From assembly GCF_036227265.1 (NCBI RefSeq), contig NZ_CP109446.1, positions 4,101,001-4,165,000 on the forward strand: a stretch of DNA of 64,000 nucleotides, given 5' to 3'. The notes under the pieces were generated by a model that was given only the letters and a program-made list of their open reading frames with translations, did no database searches and had not been told where the DNA came from. Source of the stretch: Streptomyces sp. NBC_01476 (GTDB lineage Bacteria; Actinomycetota; Actinomycetes; Streptomycetales; Streptomycetaceae). Position numbers and translations under genes: made by a program. Of this stretch, positions 6,898 to 56,869 are shown one piece after another; within the stretch, counting starts at the first letter, position 1, and each line of letters starts with the position of its first letter.

Positions 6898-7938
6898 ATG
6901 GCGCTCACCCTGTACGTCGACTCCGCACGCTGGCGTGCCCACCATCAGTCCGTGGTTGACCAGTTCCCCGGCATCGTGCCGGTCTGCAAGGGGAACGGCT
7001 ACGGCTTCGGCCACGAGCGGCTCGCCGACGAGGCGACCCGGCTGCGGGCCGGCATGCTCGCCGTCGGCACCACGTACGAGGCGGCCCGGATCAAGGACTT
7101 CTTCGGCGGCGATCTGCTGGTGCTGACCCCGTACCGGCTCGGCGAGGAGCCGGTACCGCTGCCCGACCGGGCGATCCGCTCGGTCTCCTCGGTGGAGGGC
7201 GTACGCGGCCTGGTGGGCGCCCGGGTGGTGATCGAGGTGATGAGCTCCATGCGGCGGCACGGCGTCGCCGAGGACGACCTGGTGAAGCTGCACACCGCGA
7301 TCGACGACGTGCGGCTGGAGGGCTTCGCCATTCACCTGCCGCTGGACCGTACCGACGGCAGCGAGGCGGTGGAGGAGGTCTTCGCCTGGATGGAGCGGCT
7401 GCGGGCCGCCCGGCTGCCGCTGCACACCATGTTCGTCAGCCATCTGAAGGCCACCGAGCTGGCCACGCTCCAGCAGCAGTTCCCGCAGACCAAGTTCCGG
7501 GCCCGGATCGGCACCCAGCTGTGGCTCGGCGACCACGACGCCACCGAGTACCGCGGCGCGGTGCTGGACGTCACCCGGATCGCCAAGGGCGAGCGGTACG
7601 GCTACCGGCAGGAGAAGTCGGCGGCGGACGGCCACCTGGTGGTGGTGGCCGGCGGCACCTCGCACGGCGTCGGCCTGGAGGCTCCCAAGGCGCTGCACGG
7701 GCTGATGCCGCGGGCCAAGGGCGTGGCGCGGGCCGGCCTCGCCACCGTCAACCGCAACCTGTCGCCCTTCGTGTGGGCCGGCAAGCAGCGGTGGTTCGCC
7801 GAGCCGCCGCACATGCAGGTCTCGATCCTCTTCCTGCCGAGCGACGTGGCGCCGCCCGCGGTCGGCGACGAGCTGGTGGCGCATCTGCGGCACACCACGA
7901 CCCAGTTCGACCGGGTCGTGGACCGCAACCCCTCCTGA
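6898..7938 (+). CDS. alanine racemase-like PLP protein
   Basis: 346 aa, related to fold-III PLP enzymes of the alanine racemase family. The PLP lysine motif reads VCKGNGYGFG with K31; ERYGYR near residue 235 may supply the second catalytic Tyr, and TQLWLGD corresponds to the dimer-side motif. The usual VGYADG block is replaced by VAGGTSHG and the C-terminal barrel is short, so it may act on another substrate or be non-catalytic. It follows femX by 36 bp, which suggests a role in wall precursor supply. It ends 7 bp from the convergent GT87 gene. Confidence 0.75.
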   Translation: MALTLYVDSARWRAHHQSVVDQFPGIVPVCKGNGYGFGHERLADEATRLRAGMLAVGTTYEAARIKDFFGGDLLVLTPYRLGEEPVPLPDRAIRSVSSVEGVRGLVGARVVIEVMSSMRRHGVAEDDLVKLHTAIDDVRLEGFAIHLPLDRTDGSEAVEEVFAWMERLRAARLPLHTMFVSHLKATELATLQQQFPQTKFRARIGTQLWLGDHDATEYRGAVLDVTRIAKGERYGYRQEKSAADGHLVVVAGGTSHGVGLEAPKALHGLMPRAKGVARAGLATVNRNLSPFVWAGKQRWFAEPPHMQVSILFLPSDVAPPAVGDELVAHLRHTTTQFDRVVDRNPS

Positions 7939-47375: not shown

Positions 47376-47449
47376 GGGGCTATAGCTCAGACGGTTAGAG
47401 CGCTTCCCTGATAAGGAAGAGGCCCCAGGTTCAAGTCCTGGTAGCCCCA
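47376..47449 (+). tRNA. tRNA-Ile (anticodon GAU)
   Basis: Full cloverleaf: acceptor GGGGCTA/TAGCCCC, D arm GCTC...GAGC, anticodon loop CTGATAA with GAT at 47410-47412, and T arm CCAGG-TTCAAGT-CCTGG. CCA follows in the DNA at 47450-47452; that CCA seems to come from the integrated element, since the displaced chromosomal end at 50881 continues differently. Confidence 0.97.
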
Positions 47450-47450
47450 C
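47407..47450 (+). repeat. attachment site att-left (44-bp direct repeat)
   Basis: The sequence from the anticodon arm to the first base after the discriminator is repeated exactly at 50839-50882. Integration into a tRNA 3' end reconstitutes the tRNA on this side. Confidence 0.93.
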
Positions 47451-47457
47451 CAGCGCA

Positions 47458-47490
47458 AACAGCCCCTCACGGGATCCGTGAGGGGCTGTT
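47458..47490 (+). terminator. terminator after tRNA-Ile (element-borne)
   Basis: 15-bp arms starting AACAGCCCCTCACGG around a 3-nt loop. The original chromosomal terminator appears to be the hairpin at 50892. Confidence 0.8.
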
Positions 47491-47507
47491 GACATCTACG
47501 GGTGACA

Positions 47508-48200
47508 TCAGTTGTCCGGAATCTGTCCGGTAAGCAGGTCCGCGAGCCGCGCGGCGGCGGCGCGCTGGTCCTCATCCACAACGTGTGTGTAGATGTCCAT
47601 GGTCATGCTGATCTGGCTGTGCCGAAGGATCGCCTGCGCAACCTTGGGGTGGACCTTGAGGAAAGCCAGCAGCGTCCCGCAGGTGTGACGGGCCAGCCGG
47701 ACCGTGATCCGCCGCACACCGGAGCGGGCCACCAGCCGCTCGAAGGTGAGCGAGAAGCCCCGCGGCTTGATCGGCCCGCCGTTCCGCTCGGAGAGGAACA
47801 GGTCAGCCTCGGGTGCCTGCTTCCACTCCTCACCGCCAGCCCGCCGCTCCAGCTCTTGCAGGTACTGCCGGTCCGCCCGCCAGTGCTTCGAGGCAGAAGG
47901 CCGGCAGCGGCAACGCCGCCTGTGAGGAGCCGGTCTTGAGCTTCTTGAGCACAAGCTTCCCGTCTACGCGCTGGACATGCATGATCGGCGTGAACTGGCC
48001 GTGTTCGAGGTCCACGTCTTGCCGGCGCAGGCCCAGAACCTCGCTGAGCCGTAGACCCAGGACCAGGACGAAGGCCGCGTAGAGCCGGTGCGACCGTGCA
48101 TGGCACGGTTCCGGGCGTTTCGGAGCGTCCGCAGCACCTCTGCCCACGTAGCCGCCTGGTCTGGCTTCTGCCGCCGCAGCTCGGCGAGCACGGCTCGCAC
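47508..48200 (-). pseudogene. tyrosine integrase, 3' part (frameshifted, partly deleted)
   Basis: Reading on the minus strand: QVRAVLAELRRQKPDQAATW and EVLRTLRNARNRAMH (core domain), then, after a deletion and frame change near 48075, RLYAAFVLVLGLRLSEVLG through LKTGSSQAALPLPAFCLE. After a second frame change near 47890 comes KHWRADRQYLQELERRAGG to VRLARHTCGTLL and ILRHSQISMTMDIYTHV with the catalytic Tyr. About 30 residues usually found before RLYAAF are missing. It cannot make a full integrase. Confidence 0.88.
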
Positions 48201-48231
48201 TGAGGTTCCCCCGCTGTGCGGGAGTGGCTGA

Positions 48232-49152
48232 CTAGCTGGTCAGGGCGGGTTGACGTGGTTTCAGGTTCACCGGTTCGGCCGCTGCCTGGTCGGCGTAGCG
48301 CTTCTCCTCGAACTCGATCGGGCTGAGGTAGCCGAGGCGTTTTTGGATGCGTCGGGGGTTGTAGAAGCCGTCGATGTACTCGAAGAGCGCCAGATTGGCT
48401 TCGGCCCTGGTCGCGAAGACGCGGCCGCGGATGCACTCGGTCTTAATGATCATCCACAGGTTCTCCGCCAGGGCGTTGTCGAAGGAGTCCCCGACGGAGC
48501 CCATGGACGCCCGGATACCCGCTCTGACCAGCCGCGTCGTCAGCTTGATACTCGTATATTGACAGCCGTGATCGGCATGGTGGACCAGTTCGCCCGGGGC
48601 GACCTCACGGCTGGCCAGGGCATACTCCAACGAGGACAGGACCAGGTCCGCGTCCGCGCGGGCGGAGGTCTCCCATGCCACGACGCGGCGGGAGAACACG
48701 TCGCGGATCGCCGACAGCCACAAAGGCCCCTCCCCGGTGGAGATCATGGTGAGGTCGGTGACCCACAACCGGTTCGGCGCGGGCGCGGTGAAGTCGCGTT
48801 GCACGAGGTCAGGGGCGAGATCGGCGTCCGGATCGCGGCGGGTGAACCCCTTGCCGCGGCGGGGGCTGATGCCGACGAGACCGGCCTCGCGCATGAGGCG
48901 CTCGACCCGTTTGCGGCCGACGTGCACTCCACCGCGCTTCAAGACGGCATGGACACGGGGCGAGCCGTAGACCCCGCCGGATTCCTCATGGACCTGCCGG
49001 ATCCGGCCGGTCAGCTCCGTGTCCTGACGGCGCCGTTCACACGGCTCCTTTTCTGCCTGGCGCCAGCGGTAATAGGTGGACGAGGGGATGTGCAGTTCCC
49101 GGAGTACGGGCTCGACCCCCAGGTGCGCGTGCTCATCGAGGAGCGCGGTCAC
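48232..49152 (-). CDS. IS3-family transposase OrfB (DDE)
   Basis: 306 aa integrase-core part. Catalytic acids fit D in WVTDLTMIST, D in VHHADHGCQYTS and E in LAENLWMIIKTE; the tail FYNPRRIQKRLGYLSPIEFE is typical. The frame is -1 relative to OrfA and opens before the GTG 49152 overlap. Expected product is an OrfAB fusion made by frameshifting. Confidence 0.93.
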   Translation of the reverse strand: MTALLDEHAHLGVEPVLRELHIPSSTYYRWRQAEKEPCERRRQDTELTGRIRQVHEESGGVYGSPRVHAVLKRGGVHVGRKRVERLMREAGLVGISPRRGKGFTRRDPDADLAPDLVQRDFTAPAPNRLWVTDLTMISTGEGPLWLSAIRDVFSRRVVAWETSARADADLVLSSLEYALASREVAPGELVHHADHGCQYTSIKLTTRLVRAGIRASMGSVGDSFDNALAENLWMIIKTECIRGRVFATRAEANLALFEYIDGFYNPRRIQKRLGYLSPIEFEEKRYADQAAAEPVNLKPRQPALTS

Positions 49153-49457
49153 CTGGGCCGGGTCGGGTCGAGCTGGGCCGCGAAAAAAGCCGAGGCTGTC
49201 CGCAGGACCTCGTTCGCCCGCTTGAGCTGGGCATTCTCCCTGCGCAGGGCGGCCAACTCCTCGCGCTCGGCAGTGGTCAACACGTCCTCCCGTTCGCCGG
49301 CGTCGGCCTCGGCCTGGCGGATCCAGTTGCGCAGGGCCTCGTGGTGGACACCGAGATCCTCGGCCATGCGGCGGATCACCGGCTTCGGCTCGGCCGCCCG
49401 GTACATCCGCACCGCACGCTCACGCAACTCCAGCGGGTACTTCCTCGGGGCAGGCAT
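49149..49457 (-). CDS. IS3-family transposase OrfA with slippery site
   Basis: 102 aa from ATG 49457 (MPAPRKYPLELRERAVRMYR), a helix-turn-helix (IRRMAEDLGVHHEALRNWIR) and a leucine-zipper-like end (LAALRRENAQLKRANEVLR). The codons GCT TTT TTC near the end hold a T TTT TTC heptamer (plus strand 49182-49188). A -1 slip there continues in frame through RGPARPDPAQV into OrfB. Confidence 0.92.
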   Translation of the reverse strand: MPAPRKYPLELRERAVRMYRAAEPKPVIRRMAEDLGVHHEALRNWIRQAEADAGEREDVLTTAEREELAALRRENAQLKRANEVLRTASAFFAAQLDPTRPR

Positions 49458-49526
49458 CGTCAGGGCTCCTCTCATGAGACCCATCTGACCTGCTGTCACC
49501 CTTCCCCGCATCTCGGGGGAACCTCA

Positions 49527-49956
49527 CACCTGCGCAGGCGTGAGACACGTCAGCGGCTTCTTCCCCAGCTTGGGGACGAGGTAGAGCCGCGTCTTGGCCT
49601 CGTACTTGTTGCAGGTGCCCGGTTCCTCGTTCGGCTTGACGATGTGCTCAAACCGGTAGCTCAGCCACTCGCCGAGCTTCCACGTCCGATCGTGCACCGG
49701 AACTCCGGCTCGCTCCCGGTCCTGAAGGTCGGCAGGCTTCTCGGGCCACCCCGTCATACGTTTTGCCGTAGACGTACTTCCGCACGCGCTGACCACTCGC
49801 GTTCGTGACGTAGGCCGCCCCCTGTGCAGAAACTCGGCGGCACCGGCCGATGGTCACCGAGGCCCGTCGGTGCGTGCGCATCAGGTCGTACACCGTGGAA
49901 CGCCCCACCTTGAGCCGTGCCATCACGTCGGGCTCGGTCAGCAGTTCGTCCGTCAT
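49527..49956 (-). pseudogene. excisionase fused to integrase 5' part (decayed)
   Basis: ATG 49956 starts an AlpA-type helix-turn-helix, MTDELLTEPDVMARLKVGRS, then TVYDLMRTHRRASVTIGRCR. At about 49845 the excisionase tail is lost and integrase N-terminal sequence (NASGQRVRKYVYGKTYD) follows in the same frame. A frame change near 49755 leads to LQDRERAGVPVHDRTWKLGE and TRLYLVPKLGKKPLTCLTPA, where the IS interrupts. Confidence 0.85.
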
Positions 49957-50217
49957 CCGCCATCCCGCCCGCAGGTAGGCCCAAGGGGATATGACGGCAG
50001 AACCACGACAGCCCATAGCGCGGTCACGACGATGCCTCCGGCGGGGGAGCTGATGCCCTGAACCACGCCCGCTCCACAAGAGTGAGGGCCGACGGCAGAC
50101 GGGATGGGAGCTGGGGGGAGTGGTGGCTGTCGGGTCACCCATACCGCTCATCGGTTGTCAGAGTGGGCCGCTACCGTGGGCCGCAGTCAGGCGGCAACTA
50201 GAGAAAAGGGGCTGGTC

Positions 50218-50691
50218 ATGGGTGCCAGCGGGTGGGATTACGTCACTACGTACCGAGGAAGTGTCGAGGCGACGCTCGAAGCGTTGCACGAAGAGGTCTT
50301 CCAGGAGATGTATGGCGACGGCGAGCAGTACGCGAGCCGTGAGGAGCTCTACGCCGATGAGGAGTTCATGGGCAACGAGGGCACTCATTCGATTTTGGAC
50401 GTGCGGTGGATAGTCAAGACGATCGAGCCTGACCAGGAGGTGGACTACGACACCGTCCGTCCGCTGACCAACGCCCGGCTTGTCCACCACTTCGGCACGG
50501 ATCGCCCAACTGTGAAGCAGTACCAGGACGCGATGGCTCGGGCGTACGAGACCATGAGGACCAGAAGTCTTGAGGATGAGGACACGACGTTGCTGGGAGA
50601 GGACCGGAAGCGCTGGACCGGCGTCTATGTGCTCCTCTACACCGAAGGTGAACCTACCCACGTCGGGTTCTTTGGTTCTTCTGGCGACTGA
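50218..50691 (+). CDS. unknown cargo gene of the integrative element
   Basis: 157 aa, acidic and soluble, starting MGASGWDYVTTYRGSVEATL. Other stretches are MYGDGEQYASREELYADEEF and VYVLLYTEGEPTHVGFFGSS at the C-terminus. Base composition looks less GC-rich than the core genes. ATG 50218 follows AAAAGGGG. I recognise no family. It is the only intact non-IS gene in the element, which suggests it may be retained for a function. Confidence 0.7.
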   Translation: MGASGWDYVTTYRGSVEATLEALHEEVFQEMYGDGEQYASREELYADEEFMGNEGTHSILDVRWIVKTIEPDQEVDYDTVRPLTNARLVHHFGTDRPTVKQYQDAMARAYETMRTRSLEDEDTTLLGEDRKRWTGVYVLLYTEGEPTHVGFFGSSGD

Positions 50692-50838
50692 GCTCGCGAT
50701 CGGGTCAGCCCCCGGCCAAGATGACATCACTAGCTGACACCAACAACTATGAACATCAGCAGTCTGCGCCGGATCCCAGCGGTCCATAGCCCAAGGCGGG
50801 AGACCGGATGCCCGTGGCCGTCGACGCGGTGCAATCGA

Positions 50839-50882
50839 CCTGATAAGGAAGAGGCCCCAGGTTCAAGTCCTGGTAGCCCCAC
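50839..50882 (+). repeat. attachment site att-right (44-bp direct repeat)
   Basis: Exact copy of 47407-47450. Here the sequence continues CTCGCG, not CCAGCG, so the pre-integration tRNA-Ile apparently had no encoded CCA. It is only a tRNA 3' half, not a second gene. Confidence 0.93.
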
Positions 50883-50891
50883 TCGCGAGCG

Positions 50892-51243: not shown

Positions 51244-51295
51244 TTGCCTTTCGCGGTACGGGTCATCGCTGTTGCCGGACCGTGACAGAGAGCAC

Positions 51296-51335
51296 TTGAG
51301 TTTGCTTGAGCAAATGGAATACGTTGCTTGAGCAA
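51296..51335 (+). promoter_or_regulatory. promoter with paired operators before the VWA operon
   Basis: TTGAGT (51296-51301) and TACGTT (51320-51325) are 18 bp apart. Two copies of the palindrome TTGCTTGAGCAA occur, one in the spacer (51301-51314, with extra T/A) and one over the start region (51324-51335), 22 bp centre to centre. This looks like a repressor site; no regulator is evident nearby. Confidence 0.6.
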
Positions 51336-51367
51336 ACGGACAGCGTGGGCGAGGGGGATGCGACGCC

Positions 51368-53332
51368 ATGGGACGACGACCACCGCCGGGCTGCGGCCCG
51401 GCCCGCCGTACGTACCGCGGGCTCATACCCGCGCTCGGCGCCCTGCTGCTGACCGGCGCGTCGCTCGGCGGCGTCCTGGTCGCCGCTCCGGCCGCCACCG
51501 CCGCCCCGGGGGCGGACGACGCCAGCATGATCATGGTGCTGGACTCCTCAGGATCGATGGCCGGCCCGGACGGTTCGGGCCACACCCGGATCGCCGCCGC
51601 CCGCAGCGCCATCGGCGCGGTGGTGGACGCGCTCCCCAACGGCTACCCGACCGGGCTGCGGGTCTACGGCGCCTCCAAGGCGTCCGGCTGCGACGACACC
51701 AGCCTGGTGCAGCCGGTCACCGCGCTCGACCGCGCCGCGGTGAAGCGGGCGGTGGCCGCCGTACAGCCCAAGGGCGACACCCCGACCGCACAGGCGCTCA
51801 CCAGGGCGGCGGCCGATCTGCCGGCCGCCGGGCGGCGGACGATCCTGCTGGTCTCGGACGGCGAGTCCAACTGCGGTACCCCCAAGCCCTGCGAGGTGGC
51901 CGCCCAGCTGGCCGGCGACGGCATCGGCCTGCGCATCGACACCGTCGGCTTCCAGGTGAAGGGCGCCGCCCGCGAGGAGCTGGAGTGCGTCGCCAGGGCC
52001 GGCCACGGCGCCTACTACGACGCCCCCGACGCCGCCGCCCTCGGCCGGCAACTGGTCCGCGCCTCCCAGCTCAGCGCCGACGCCTACCGCTTCGCCGGCA
52101 GCGAGGCGCACGGCGGTACGCAGCCCGGACAGGCGCCGTTGCTCATGCCCGGGACGTACACCGACACCGTCGACCCCGGCCAGACCCGCTGGTACGCGGT
52201 CCGGCTGGACGCCGCCGCCACCGCGGACCTCTCGGTGACCGCCGCCCCCCAGCCGGGCGTCGCGGTCGACTACGGCGACGGCCTGGAGCTGAAGCTGGTC
52301 ACCACCGGGACGTACGGCTACACCTGCGACACCACCTCGGCGCACTTCCAGCAGGACGAGGGCGCCACCAATCTGACCGCCGCGGTGAGCCGGATCCCCA
52401 GCCAGAAGCACCAGGGCGACTGCGACAAGGCCGGCCGCTACCTGCTGTCGGTGCACCGCACCACCGCGGCCGGCTCCGACCGCAGCCGCTGGCCGGTCGA
52501 GCTGACCTACGGCGCCGAGGCCCCGCTGCCGGCCGGCACCGTACCGGCCGCCGCCACCACCGAGTACGGCCCGGCGCCCGCGCCGGTCACCGGCACCCCG
52601 AAGGACCTCACCGGCGGCACCGGCTTCAACGACGCCGCCCGGATCGGCACCGGCGTCTGGCGGGACCGGCTGCTGCCGGCCCAGATCCGCTACTACAAGG
52701 TGCGCCTGGGATGGGGCCAGCAGCTCACCTACGCCGCCGAATTCGCCAACGAGCCGGTGCTCGACGCCACCTCGACCTCCACCACCTTCGTCGCCACCTC
52801 GCTCTACGCGCCCGGCCGCCTGCCGGTCAAGGACGCCTCCGACGGACACGGCAACCGCATCTACGACGGCTCCCCGGTCGCGGTGGGCCTCGGCACGGTC
52901 CCGGTCACCTGGACCAACCGGTGGGTGGACGACGGCGCGGTGCGCGACGTGCACCAGCCGGGCGACTACTGGATCGCGGTCGGGCTCGGCCCGGACGCGG
53001 CCCGGCTGGCGCGGAACTCGGCGGTCGGCGTCGTCCTGCGGGTGCGGGTGAGCGGGCAGGAGCTGGCCGGGCCGCAGTACCGGGCGCCGGCGGTGGGGTC
53101 GGGCGGGGCGTCGGACGGGGGGTCCAGTGGCACGTCGGGCCAGACGTCGGGCGGGGCGTCGGATGGGGCCCGGGGCTCCACCGCGTCGGCGGCGGACACC
53201 GGGCCCGGGCCGGGCATGTCGGGGCGGGACTGGCTCGCGGCGGGAACAGGCGGCGCGGTCGCCCTCGCCGGACTGGCGGTGGCCGCACTGGTCCACCGGA
53301 TGAGGACACGTACGGACAGGGGTGGGGTATGA
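51368..53332 (+). CDS. secreted von Willebrand A domain protein with C-terminal anchor
   Basis: 654 aa. Signal region near residues 18-48 (LIPALGALLLTGASLGGVLV). A VWA domain with MIDAS motif DSSGS (residues 60-64) and the DTPTAQ loop covers about 55-240. Two beta-rich repeats follow (DTVDPGQTRWYAVRLDA; WRDRLLPAQIRYYKVRL), then a Ser/Gly linker and a final membrane helix (GTGGAVALAGLAVAALV) with a short basic tail. It overlaps the next gene by 4 bp. It probably binds a metal-dependent ligand outside the cell. Confidence 0.85.
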   Translation: MGRRPPPGCGPARRTYRGLIPALGALLLTGASLGGVLVAAPAATAAPGADDASMIMVLDSSGSMAGPDGSGHTRIAAARSAIGAVVDALPNGYPTGLRVYGASKASGCDDTSLVQPVTALDRAAVKRAVAAVQPKGDTPTAQALTRAAADLPAAGRRTILLVSDGESNCGTPKPCEVAAQLAGDGIGLRIDTVGFQVKGAAREELECVARAGHGAYYDAPDAAALGRQLVRASQLSADAYRFAGSEAHGGTQPGQAPLLMPGTYTDTVDPGQTRWYAVRLDAAATADLSVTAAPQPGVAVDYGDGLELKLVTTGTYGYTCDTTSAHFQQDEGATNLTAAVSRIPSQKHQGDCDKAGRYLLSVHRTTAAGSDRSRWPVELTYGAEAPLPAGTVPAAATTEYGPAPAPVTGTPKDLTGGTGFNDAARIGTGVWRDRLLPAQIRYYKVRLGWGQQLTYAAEFANEPVLDATSTSTTFVATSLYAPGRLPVKDASDGHGNRIYDGSPVAVGLGTVPVTWTNRWVDDGAVRDVHQPGDYWIAVGLGPDAARLARNSAVGVVLRVRVSGQELAGPQYRAPAVGSGGASDGGSSGTSGQTSGGASDGARGSTASAADTGPGPGMSGRDWLAAGTGGAVALAGLAVAALVHRMRTRTDRGGV

Positions 53333-54690
53333 AGCGCACGACGTTCACCGTGGCGGCCGCTCTGCTGGCGCTCGCCGCACTCCAGGGCCGGGCGGCGGCC
53401 GACGGCTCCGCCCCGCCCTCCACGGGATCATCGGGCGGCATGGGCGCTCCCGCCGTCCCTCCCGCGGTCTGGCAGCCGGCCGGCAGACCGCTGCCCGGCG
53501 CGGCCACCACCGCGGACGCCCCGGCGATGAGCGCGGCCACCACGTACCGCGACACCATCAAGCCGGGCGAGACGAAGTTCTACGGCATCGCCCTCGACGC
53601 GAAGTCCTCGGCGTACGTCTCGGCCTTCGCGGTCCCCGCGAGCGGTTCGCGGGTCGCGTACGGCGACGGCATCGAGCTGAAGCTGCAGAGCGCCGACGGC
53701 GACGACTGCGACAGCCGCGACGCCCACTTCCAGGACGAGGGCGACGCACGGCCGATCGGCACCGCGGTGACCCGGCTGATCGGCATCGGGTCCACCTGCC
53801 AGGACGCCAACCAGTACACCCTCCAGGTCCACCGGACCAGCGACGGCACCTCCGACCCGGGCGCCTGGCCGCTGGAGCTGCGCTACGTCGCCGAGCCGCC
53901 GCTCAAGGCCGGTGCGAACGCCGTCCCCGCGCCCGGCTTCGGCTCCGCCTCCCCCACCCCGCTCACCGCCGGCACCCCGCGGCAGGCGCACGGTGGCAGC
54001 AGCTTCGAGACGGCCGCGGCCGTCAAGACCGGCATCTGGAAGGACCGGGTGCTGCCCGGCGAGACCCGCTTCTACAAAGTCCCGGTCGACTGGGGCCAGC
54101 AGGCCACCGTCTTCGCCGACTTCTCCAGCGCCCAGGTCACCGACGCCGGCGCCTACATCGGCTCCGGCGTCCGGCTGGAGGTCTACAGCCCGGTCCGGGA
54201 GTACGTCGACGGCGACGACAAGGCGTACGCCGGCACCCCGACCTCGATCAGCGAGCAACTCGCCCCGGTCTCGTACACCAACCGCGCGGCCGACGACGAT
54301 CCGGTGGCCCGGATGCGGTACGCGGGCTGGTACTACCTGATGGTGACCGTGCACCCGCGGGTGGCCACCGCGGTGAGCGGCCCGGTGCCGGTCACGCTCC
54401 GGGTCGACGTCAAGGGCGCGGCGCTGGCGGCCCCCGCGTACGACGGTGATCCGTCGGCGGCCGGGATCGGCGTCGACGCGCACGACGTGTCGGCTGCGGA
54501 CGGGACGGCCGTCCCGGGCACGTCGTCGTCCTCCGGGGTGCTGCGGTTCGTGGCCTTCGCGGCGCTGGGGGCGGGGACGGTGCTGCTGCTGGCGCTGGCG
54601 GCCTGGTACGCGGCGGCGCGGCGGCGGGCCGGGCGGCCGGCGGACGCGGTGCCGCCGCCCACGGGGTACGGGCCGCCGCCGTCCTGGTGA
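53329..54690 (+). CDS. secreted, membrane-anchored paralogue of the VWA protein's C-terminal half
   Basis: 453 aa. Signal peptide (MKRTTFTVAAALLALAALQG). It has the same two repeats as the upstream protein (DTIKPGETKFYGIALDA; WKDRVLPGETRFYKVPVDWG) but no VWA domain. A membrane helix follows near residues 408-428 (VAFAALGAGTVLLLALAAWY), with a Pro-rich tail. Translationally coupled to the VWA gene by ATGA, so the two may form a surface complex. No known function. Confidence 0.82.
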   Translation: MKRTTFTVAAALLALAALQGRAAADGSAPPSTGSSGGMGAPAVPPAVWQPAGRPLPGAATTADAPAMSAATTYRDTIKPGETKFYGIALDAKSSAYVSAFAVPASGSRVAYGDGIELKLQSADGDDCDSRDAHFQDEGDARPIGTAVTRLIGIGSTCQDANQYTLQVHRTSDGTSDPGAWPLELRYVAEPPLKAGANAVPAPGFGSASPTPLTAGTPRQAHGGSSFETAAAVKTGIWKDRVLPGETRFYKVPVDWGQQATVFADFSSAQVTDAGAYIGSGVRLEVYSPVREYVDGDDKAYAGTPTSISEQLAPVSYTNRAADDDPVARMRYAGWYYLMVTVHPRVATAVSGPVPVTLRVDVKGAALAAPAYDGDPSAAGIGVDAHDVSAADGTAVPGTSSSSGVLRFVAFAALGAGTVLLLALAAWYAAARRRAGRPADAVPPPTGYGPPPSW

Positions 54691-56760: not shown

Positions 56761-56869
56761 ACGCCCTCCCATTTGCGGCTGCGAACCCGCAAACCATCCT
56801 ACGGACCCCCCGCCCCCCGGTACCCGGTCGGCCCCGGCCCCCGGAACCCGGTACGCTGTTCCGCGAAGC

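Follow-up and report, generated by a model that had tools for sequence, protein, structure and literature searches.

A four-gene VWA surface-protein module of Streptomycetaceae with a probable local, autoregulatory HTH repressor

The window (the whole stretch of 64,000 nucleotides analysed here) contains an operon for a VWA surface protein and its paralogue, a Ser/Thr kinase gene and a gene for an XRE-type helix-turn-helix (HTH) protein. Judging from the placement and conservation of one short palindromic operator, the HTH protein probably represses both the VWA operon and its own gene. We consider it likely that the four genes together form a module under this local repressor; more tentatively, the kinase may act as one step of its control.

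Results

The order of the genes is vwa-par > < kin-hth, with a tRNA-Ala gene beyond hth. The VWA gene (51368-53332, plus strand) encodes a protein of 654 residues, with a signal peptide, a VWA domain with intact MIDAS, two β domains and a C-terminal transmembrane segment. Its paralogue (53329-54690, plus strand, 453 residues) has a signal peptide, two β-sandwich domains and a C-terminal transmembrane segment; the two genes share a 4-bp ATGA overlap, in agreement with the initial annotation, which had described them as translationally coupled. The convergent downstream position that it gave the other two genes is also correct. Both are on the minus strand: the Ser/Thr kinase gene (56164-54722, 480 residues) encodes an N-terminal kinase domain with HRD and DFG motifs and a C-terminal tail anchor, but no extracellular domain, and starts 29 bp behind the HTH gene (56757-56194, 187 residues). 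The start of the latter was placed at the ATG behind GGGAGG; the reading frame is open to 56772. Just upstream of the module, the region 47376-50887 is the leftover of a tRNA-integrated element, in which the 3′ end of a tRNA-Ile gene is repeated (49 bp, 96%) at 47407-47455 and 50839-50887, flanking an integrase fragment, an excisionase-like HTH gene and an IS3-type transposase.

The palindrome TTGCTTGAGCAA occurs twice upstream of the VWA gene, at 51302-51313 and 51324-51335, 22 bp apart, in line with the two helical turns first noticed; the genome search that had been proposed located no further exact copy in the 8.4-Mb genome (8,397,038 bases). An alignment of relatives generalises the operator to TTYGC-N4-GCRAA, with near-maximal information in the half-sites and little in the variable N4 core. 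Operator 1 (TTTGCTTGAGCAAA, 51301-51314, plus strand) lies in the spacer between an inferred -35 element (TTGAGT, 51296-51301, plus strand) and an inferred -10 element (TACGTT, 51320-51325, plus strand). Operator 2 (GTTGCTTGAGCAAA, 51323-51336, plus strand), 22 bp from operator 1, overlaps the -10 element and covers the -10/+1 region; it has one mismatch to the generalised pattern. TTGAG is near-invariant across loci, with TTGAC(T/G) in its place in other families, and the alignment of promoters shows TANNTT as the -10 element, with a spacing of 17-18 bp to the -35 element. Upstream of the -35 element is a conserved box, GGACCGTGAC (51277-51286, plus strand), whose distance is kept in the majority of the operon promoters compared and which may be a site for an activator or a second regulator. 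The HTH promoter carries the same type of operator as its VWA-operon target (TTCGCAGCCGCAAA, 56772-56785, minus strand), as expected of an autoregulatory gene; directly upstream of it is the inferred -10 element of the HTH-kinase transcript (TAGGAT, 56796-56801, minus strand), conserved as TAGGAT or TAAGAT in the aligned promoters. The HTH operator is preceded, 8 bp upstream, by an additional TTTGC half-site (56789-56793) that might accommodate another subunit of the regulator; in many Actinacidiphila this produces a TTTGC-N12-GCAAA motif across the start region.

The initial annotation had made its proposal depend on conservation of the palindrome, and the operator pair is indeed conserved in relatives. 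In most Actinacidiphila the two operators start 22 bp apart and the -35/-10 spacer measures 18 bp; the corresponding values for Streptomyces are 21 and 17 bp. Across these and other genera the operators keep fixed places, operator 1 between TTGAG(T) and TANNTT and operator 2 on TANNTT, and by this comparison of aligned sequences the pair is far beyond chance. A search of 81 loci (977,947 bases) returned 96 exact operator matches, 38 of them in operon promoters and 55 in HTH promoters; the remaining three, in loci L050 and L073, precede an operon whose first gene was not recognised by our script. Control patterns with N3, N5 and N6 cores had 1, 1 and 0 matches in the same 978 kb. In a set of 80 GTDB genomes, which were retrieved by HTH homology and overlap in species with the 81-locus set, the HTH promoter contains an exact operator in 77, placed immediately after the -10 element.

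At the operon itself, a matched-locus test found no exact operator in 44 of 67 loci with both the HTH gene and the paralogue; Streptomyces pairs often have one mismatch per site, or the VWA gene is absent. Four loci (L051, L054, L058, L062) have kept the HTH gene in the absence of an operon operator, and most of them have lost the VWA gene or carry a shortened one. In L104 and L105, where the VWA gene is missing, the operator pair is visible before the retained paralogue. A combined -35/operator 1/operator 2 pattern proved too strict as a search tool and was discarded: it matched in 2 of 12 genomes and missed the window through the mismatch in operator 2.

In families of the class other than Streptomycetaceae the HTH gene is divergent from the VWA gene, or the HTH-kinase pair lies several kb away. 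Nevertheless, each of the 16 exact sites in 15 such loci (212,820 bases) falls at a vwa, par or hth promoter, and several of these promoters have canonical TTGACT or TTGACG -35 elements. In one distant genome (L227) the paralogue and the VWA gene have separate promoters, at 7793 and 9226, both with the series -35/operator 1/-10/operator 2. Single exact operators occur beside the 3′ end of the kinase gene in Streptomyces albireticuli (L171:7730) and S. griseocarneus (L191:7751; both in reverse-complemented coordinates), two loci in which the paralogue was not found. Another doubled palindrome, of the TTGCCTCGGCAAGTG...CACTTGCCGAGGCAA type, was seen outside the module (G115:C1:7767598-7767688, G020:C58:163496-163586 and G038:C271:1211-1244).

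Co-occurrence of the genes across streptomycetes, a check suggested at the outset, bears out their association. The paralogue is present in 84 and the HTH gene in 80 of 150 Streptomycetaceae genomes, the latter being widespread in Streptomyces and Streptantibioticus, and the gene order is retained in most of the examined loci with complete genes. Comparison with named genomes assigns the window to the genus Actinacidiphila. Five Actinacidiphila genomes in which the HTH gene is absent genome-wide (G071, G088, G094, G106, G118) have no intact operators. Intact operators are also absent from a related pair of genomes, G008 and G023, the second of which retains only the C-terminus of the HTH protein and a decayed operator pair; locus L064 combines a truncated HTH gene with decayed operon operators. 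In a kinase tree the genomes lacking the HTH gene fall into two losses. Because this amounts to only about two independent events, we regard the evidence from HTH loss as supportive rather than conclusive.

The HTH protein matches Pfam HTH_31 with an E-value of 3.8e-4, below the curated cut-off. Its AlphaFold model (mean pLDDT 81) consists of two helical domains, an N-terminal one with the HTH and a C-terminal one, joined by a disordered linker containing Ser and Thr (residues 109-125). The helices and fold of the model identify a DNA-binding domain whose top fold match is ClgR, an XRE-type regulator of clp genes that binds a palindrome of the GTTCGC...GCGAAC type, with five bases between the half-sites. 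The match to the Corynebacterium glutamicum structure (3f51), the nearest solved fold, is weak (E = 0.22), and the likeness is at the level of the fold only. The second helical domain, which follows the linker in the HTH protein, is additional to ClgR. The half-sites of the two palindromes are similar, but ClgR differs in its five-base spacing and its targets. We dropped membership of the ClgR group given the N4 spacing of the operator; the N5 control had 1 match in 978 kb. The recognition region of the HTH protein, SAPMLSQ..SGQRAKIGNP, is near-invariant wherever operators occur. By adjacency, SCO3859 is the likely counterpart in S. coelicolor. Reported MtrA binding upstream of sco3863 was considered and set aside, as no tie to the module locus could be established.

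The kinase matches Pfam Pkinase (E = 1.3e-37). HRD and DFG motifs are present in all 34 orthologues and a C-terminal tail anchor is predicted from hydropathy in 33 of them; the protein in the window has no N-terminal hydrophobic segment and is thus predicted to be a tail-anchored Ser/Thr kinase. SCO3860 of S. coelicolor, listed as a tail-anchored kinase candidate (PMC3087755), is of the same type and has a C-terminal tail (RPGPPARVALPVLLLALACYAVGF...) that closely resembles those of the module kinases. That study gives it candidate status only and does not tie it to a VWA operon, an HTH protein or an operator.

The VWA domain matches Pfam VWA_2 (E = 1.4e-10). The window protein has the MIDAS residues DSSGS, T and SDG, as do most of the 19 orthologues whose VWA domain is complete; one further aligned sequence was left out as a misread ORF. 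Hydropathy predicts a hydrophobic N-terminus and a C-terminal transmembrane segment for the VWA protein, consistent with export and anchoring. C-terminal anchors are predicted in 23 of 26 VWA proteins and 38 of 41 paralogues, as the initial annotation had supposed, and the two β-rich repeats that it saw in both proteins are 38-40% identical over about 300-360 residues. It had also called for structural modelling of the repeats: the AlphaFold model of the paralogue (pLDDT 87) shows two β-sandwich domains and a C-terminal transmembrane helix. No Pfam match was found for the paralogue in the window, and no sequence match of its β domains to solved structures. The top fold match in the PDB is to the PPC and collagen-binding domains of clostridial collagenase (ColG, 5iku; E = 2.5e-9), with low TM-scores and no sequence match; of 31 paralogue members, one hits Pfam PPC (E = 0.0014). 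Given that a collagen-binding domain is the nearest fold, a binding or adhesive role of the paralogue is plausible from the model.

Discussion

We infer that the HTH protein binds the operator and that binding represses transcription. At the VWA-operon promoter two copies of the HTH protein, presumably as dimers spaced by two helical turns, would cover the -35/-10 spacer and the region from the -10 element to the start, and so block RNA polymerase. A single operator immediately downstream of the -10 element of the HTH promoter would subject the HTH-kinase transcript to negative autoregulation. Autoregulatory XRE/lambda-type repressors of a neighbouring operon likewise act through a pair of palindromes in the target's core promoter, separated by about two helical turns, and have an operator in their own promoter. 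The present module differs from these in having a VWA surface operon as its target and in transcribing the regulator gene together with that of a tail-anchored kinase.

The initial annotation had attributed control of the operon to an unlinked factor, and this is the one part of it that we would replace. In principle, an unlinked transcription factor could bind both promoters, the HTH gene being merely another of its targets, and a DNA-affinity screen that recovered SCO3859 on ssg promoters (PMC4457907) allows for wider roles. We think this unlikely. The operator occurs in the linked HTH gene's own promoter in 77 of the 80 genomes retrieved by HTH homology, is confined to module promoters in the loci studied, follows the HTH and VWA genes through rearrangements and is missing from the two clades that have lost the HTH gene; the most economical interpretation of this pattern is that the linked XRE protein is autoregulatory. 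Moreover, the genome contains only 12 exact TTYGC-N4-GCRAA sites, two of them at the locus and seven of the other ten inside predicted high-GC3 ORFs. On these counts we also reject a genome-wide regulon and claim no further targets.

Some XRE proteins are activators, and the conserved GGACCGTGAC box might mean that the operon promoter needs activation, albeit by another factor. That the HTH protein itself activates from these operators is distinctly improbable, since they occupy the positions of repressor sites: in the -35/-10 spacer, over the -10 element and downstream of the -10 element of the HTH gene. An anti-phage defence system built from the VWA protein and the kinase was rejected as highly improbable: the kinase scores against the PD-T4-6 and mad6 kinase models, which score any Ser/Thr kinase domain, the VWA protein is marginal against TerY, the other products are secreted and membrane-anchored, the gene order is stable in many species, the locus adjoins a tRNA-Ala gene here, and no signs of horizontal spread were seen.

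If the linked HTH protein is the repressor, the kinase is the likeliest source of its signal. Co-transcription and the Ser/Thr-rich linker suggest, more weakly, that the HTH protein is a substrate of the kinase: phosphorylation of residues within 109-125 would relieve repression. The loose conservation of the linker Thr outside Streptomycetaceae counts against this step. The VWA protein and its β-sandwich partner would be displayed on the outer face of the membrane, and surface or envelope sensing, or adhesion, is a plausible function for the module as predicted from its proteins. More tentatively, the locus may represent an ancient envelope-signalling module of actinomycetes that has escaped description, in which phosphorylation of the linker of a dedicated XRE repressor by the tail-anchored kinase gates the VWA/β-sandwich pair, forming a transmembrane circuit from surface to operator within one locus.

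The suggestion that the system is undescribed has held up so far: we found no description of the module or the operator in the papers searched, and literature searches with the palindrome sequences gave unrelated matches only. The parts are of known kinds; their combination and the operator appear to be new in those papers. For genes that bear only generic names, and that over half of the sampled Streptomycetaceae genomes contain, the analysis provides a probable regulator, a local regulon and an operator that is short, repeated and restricted to the module in the loci studied. An orphan tail-anchored kinase thereby gains a testable substrate and output.
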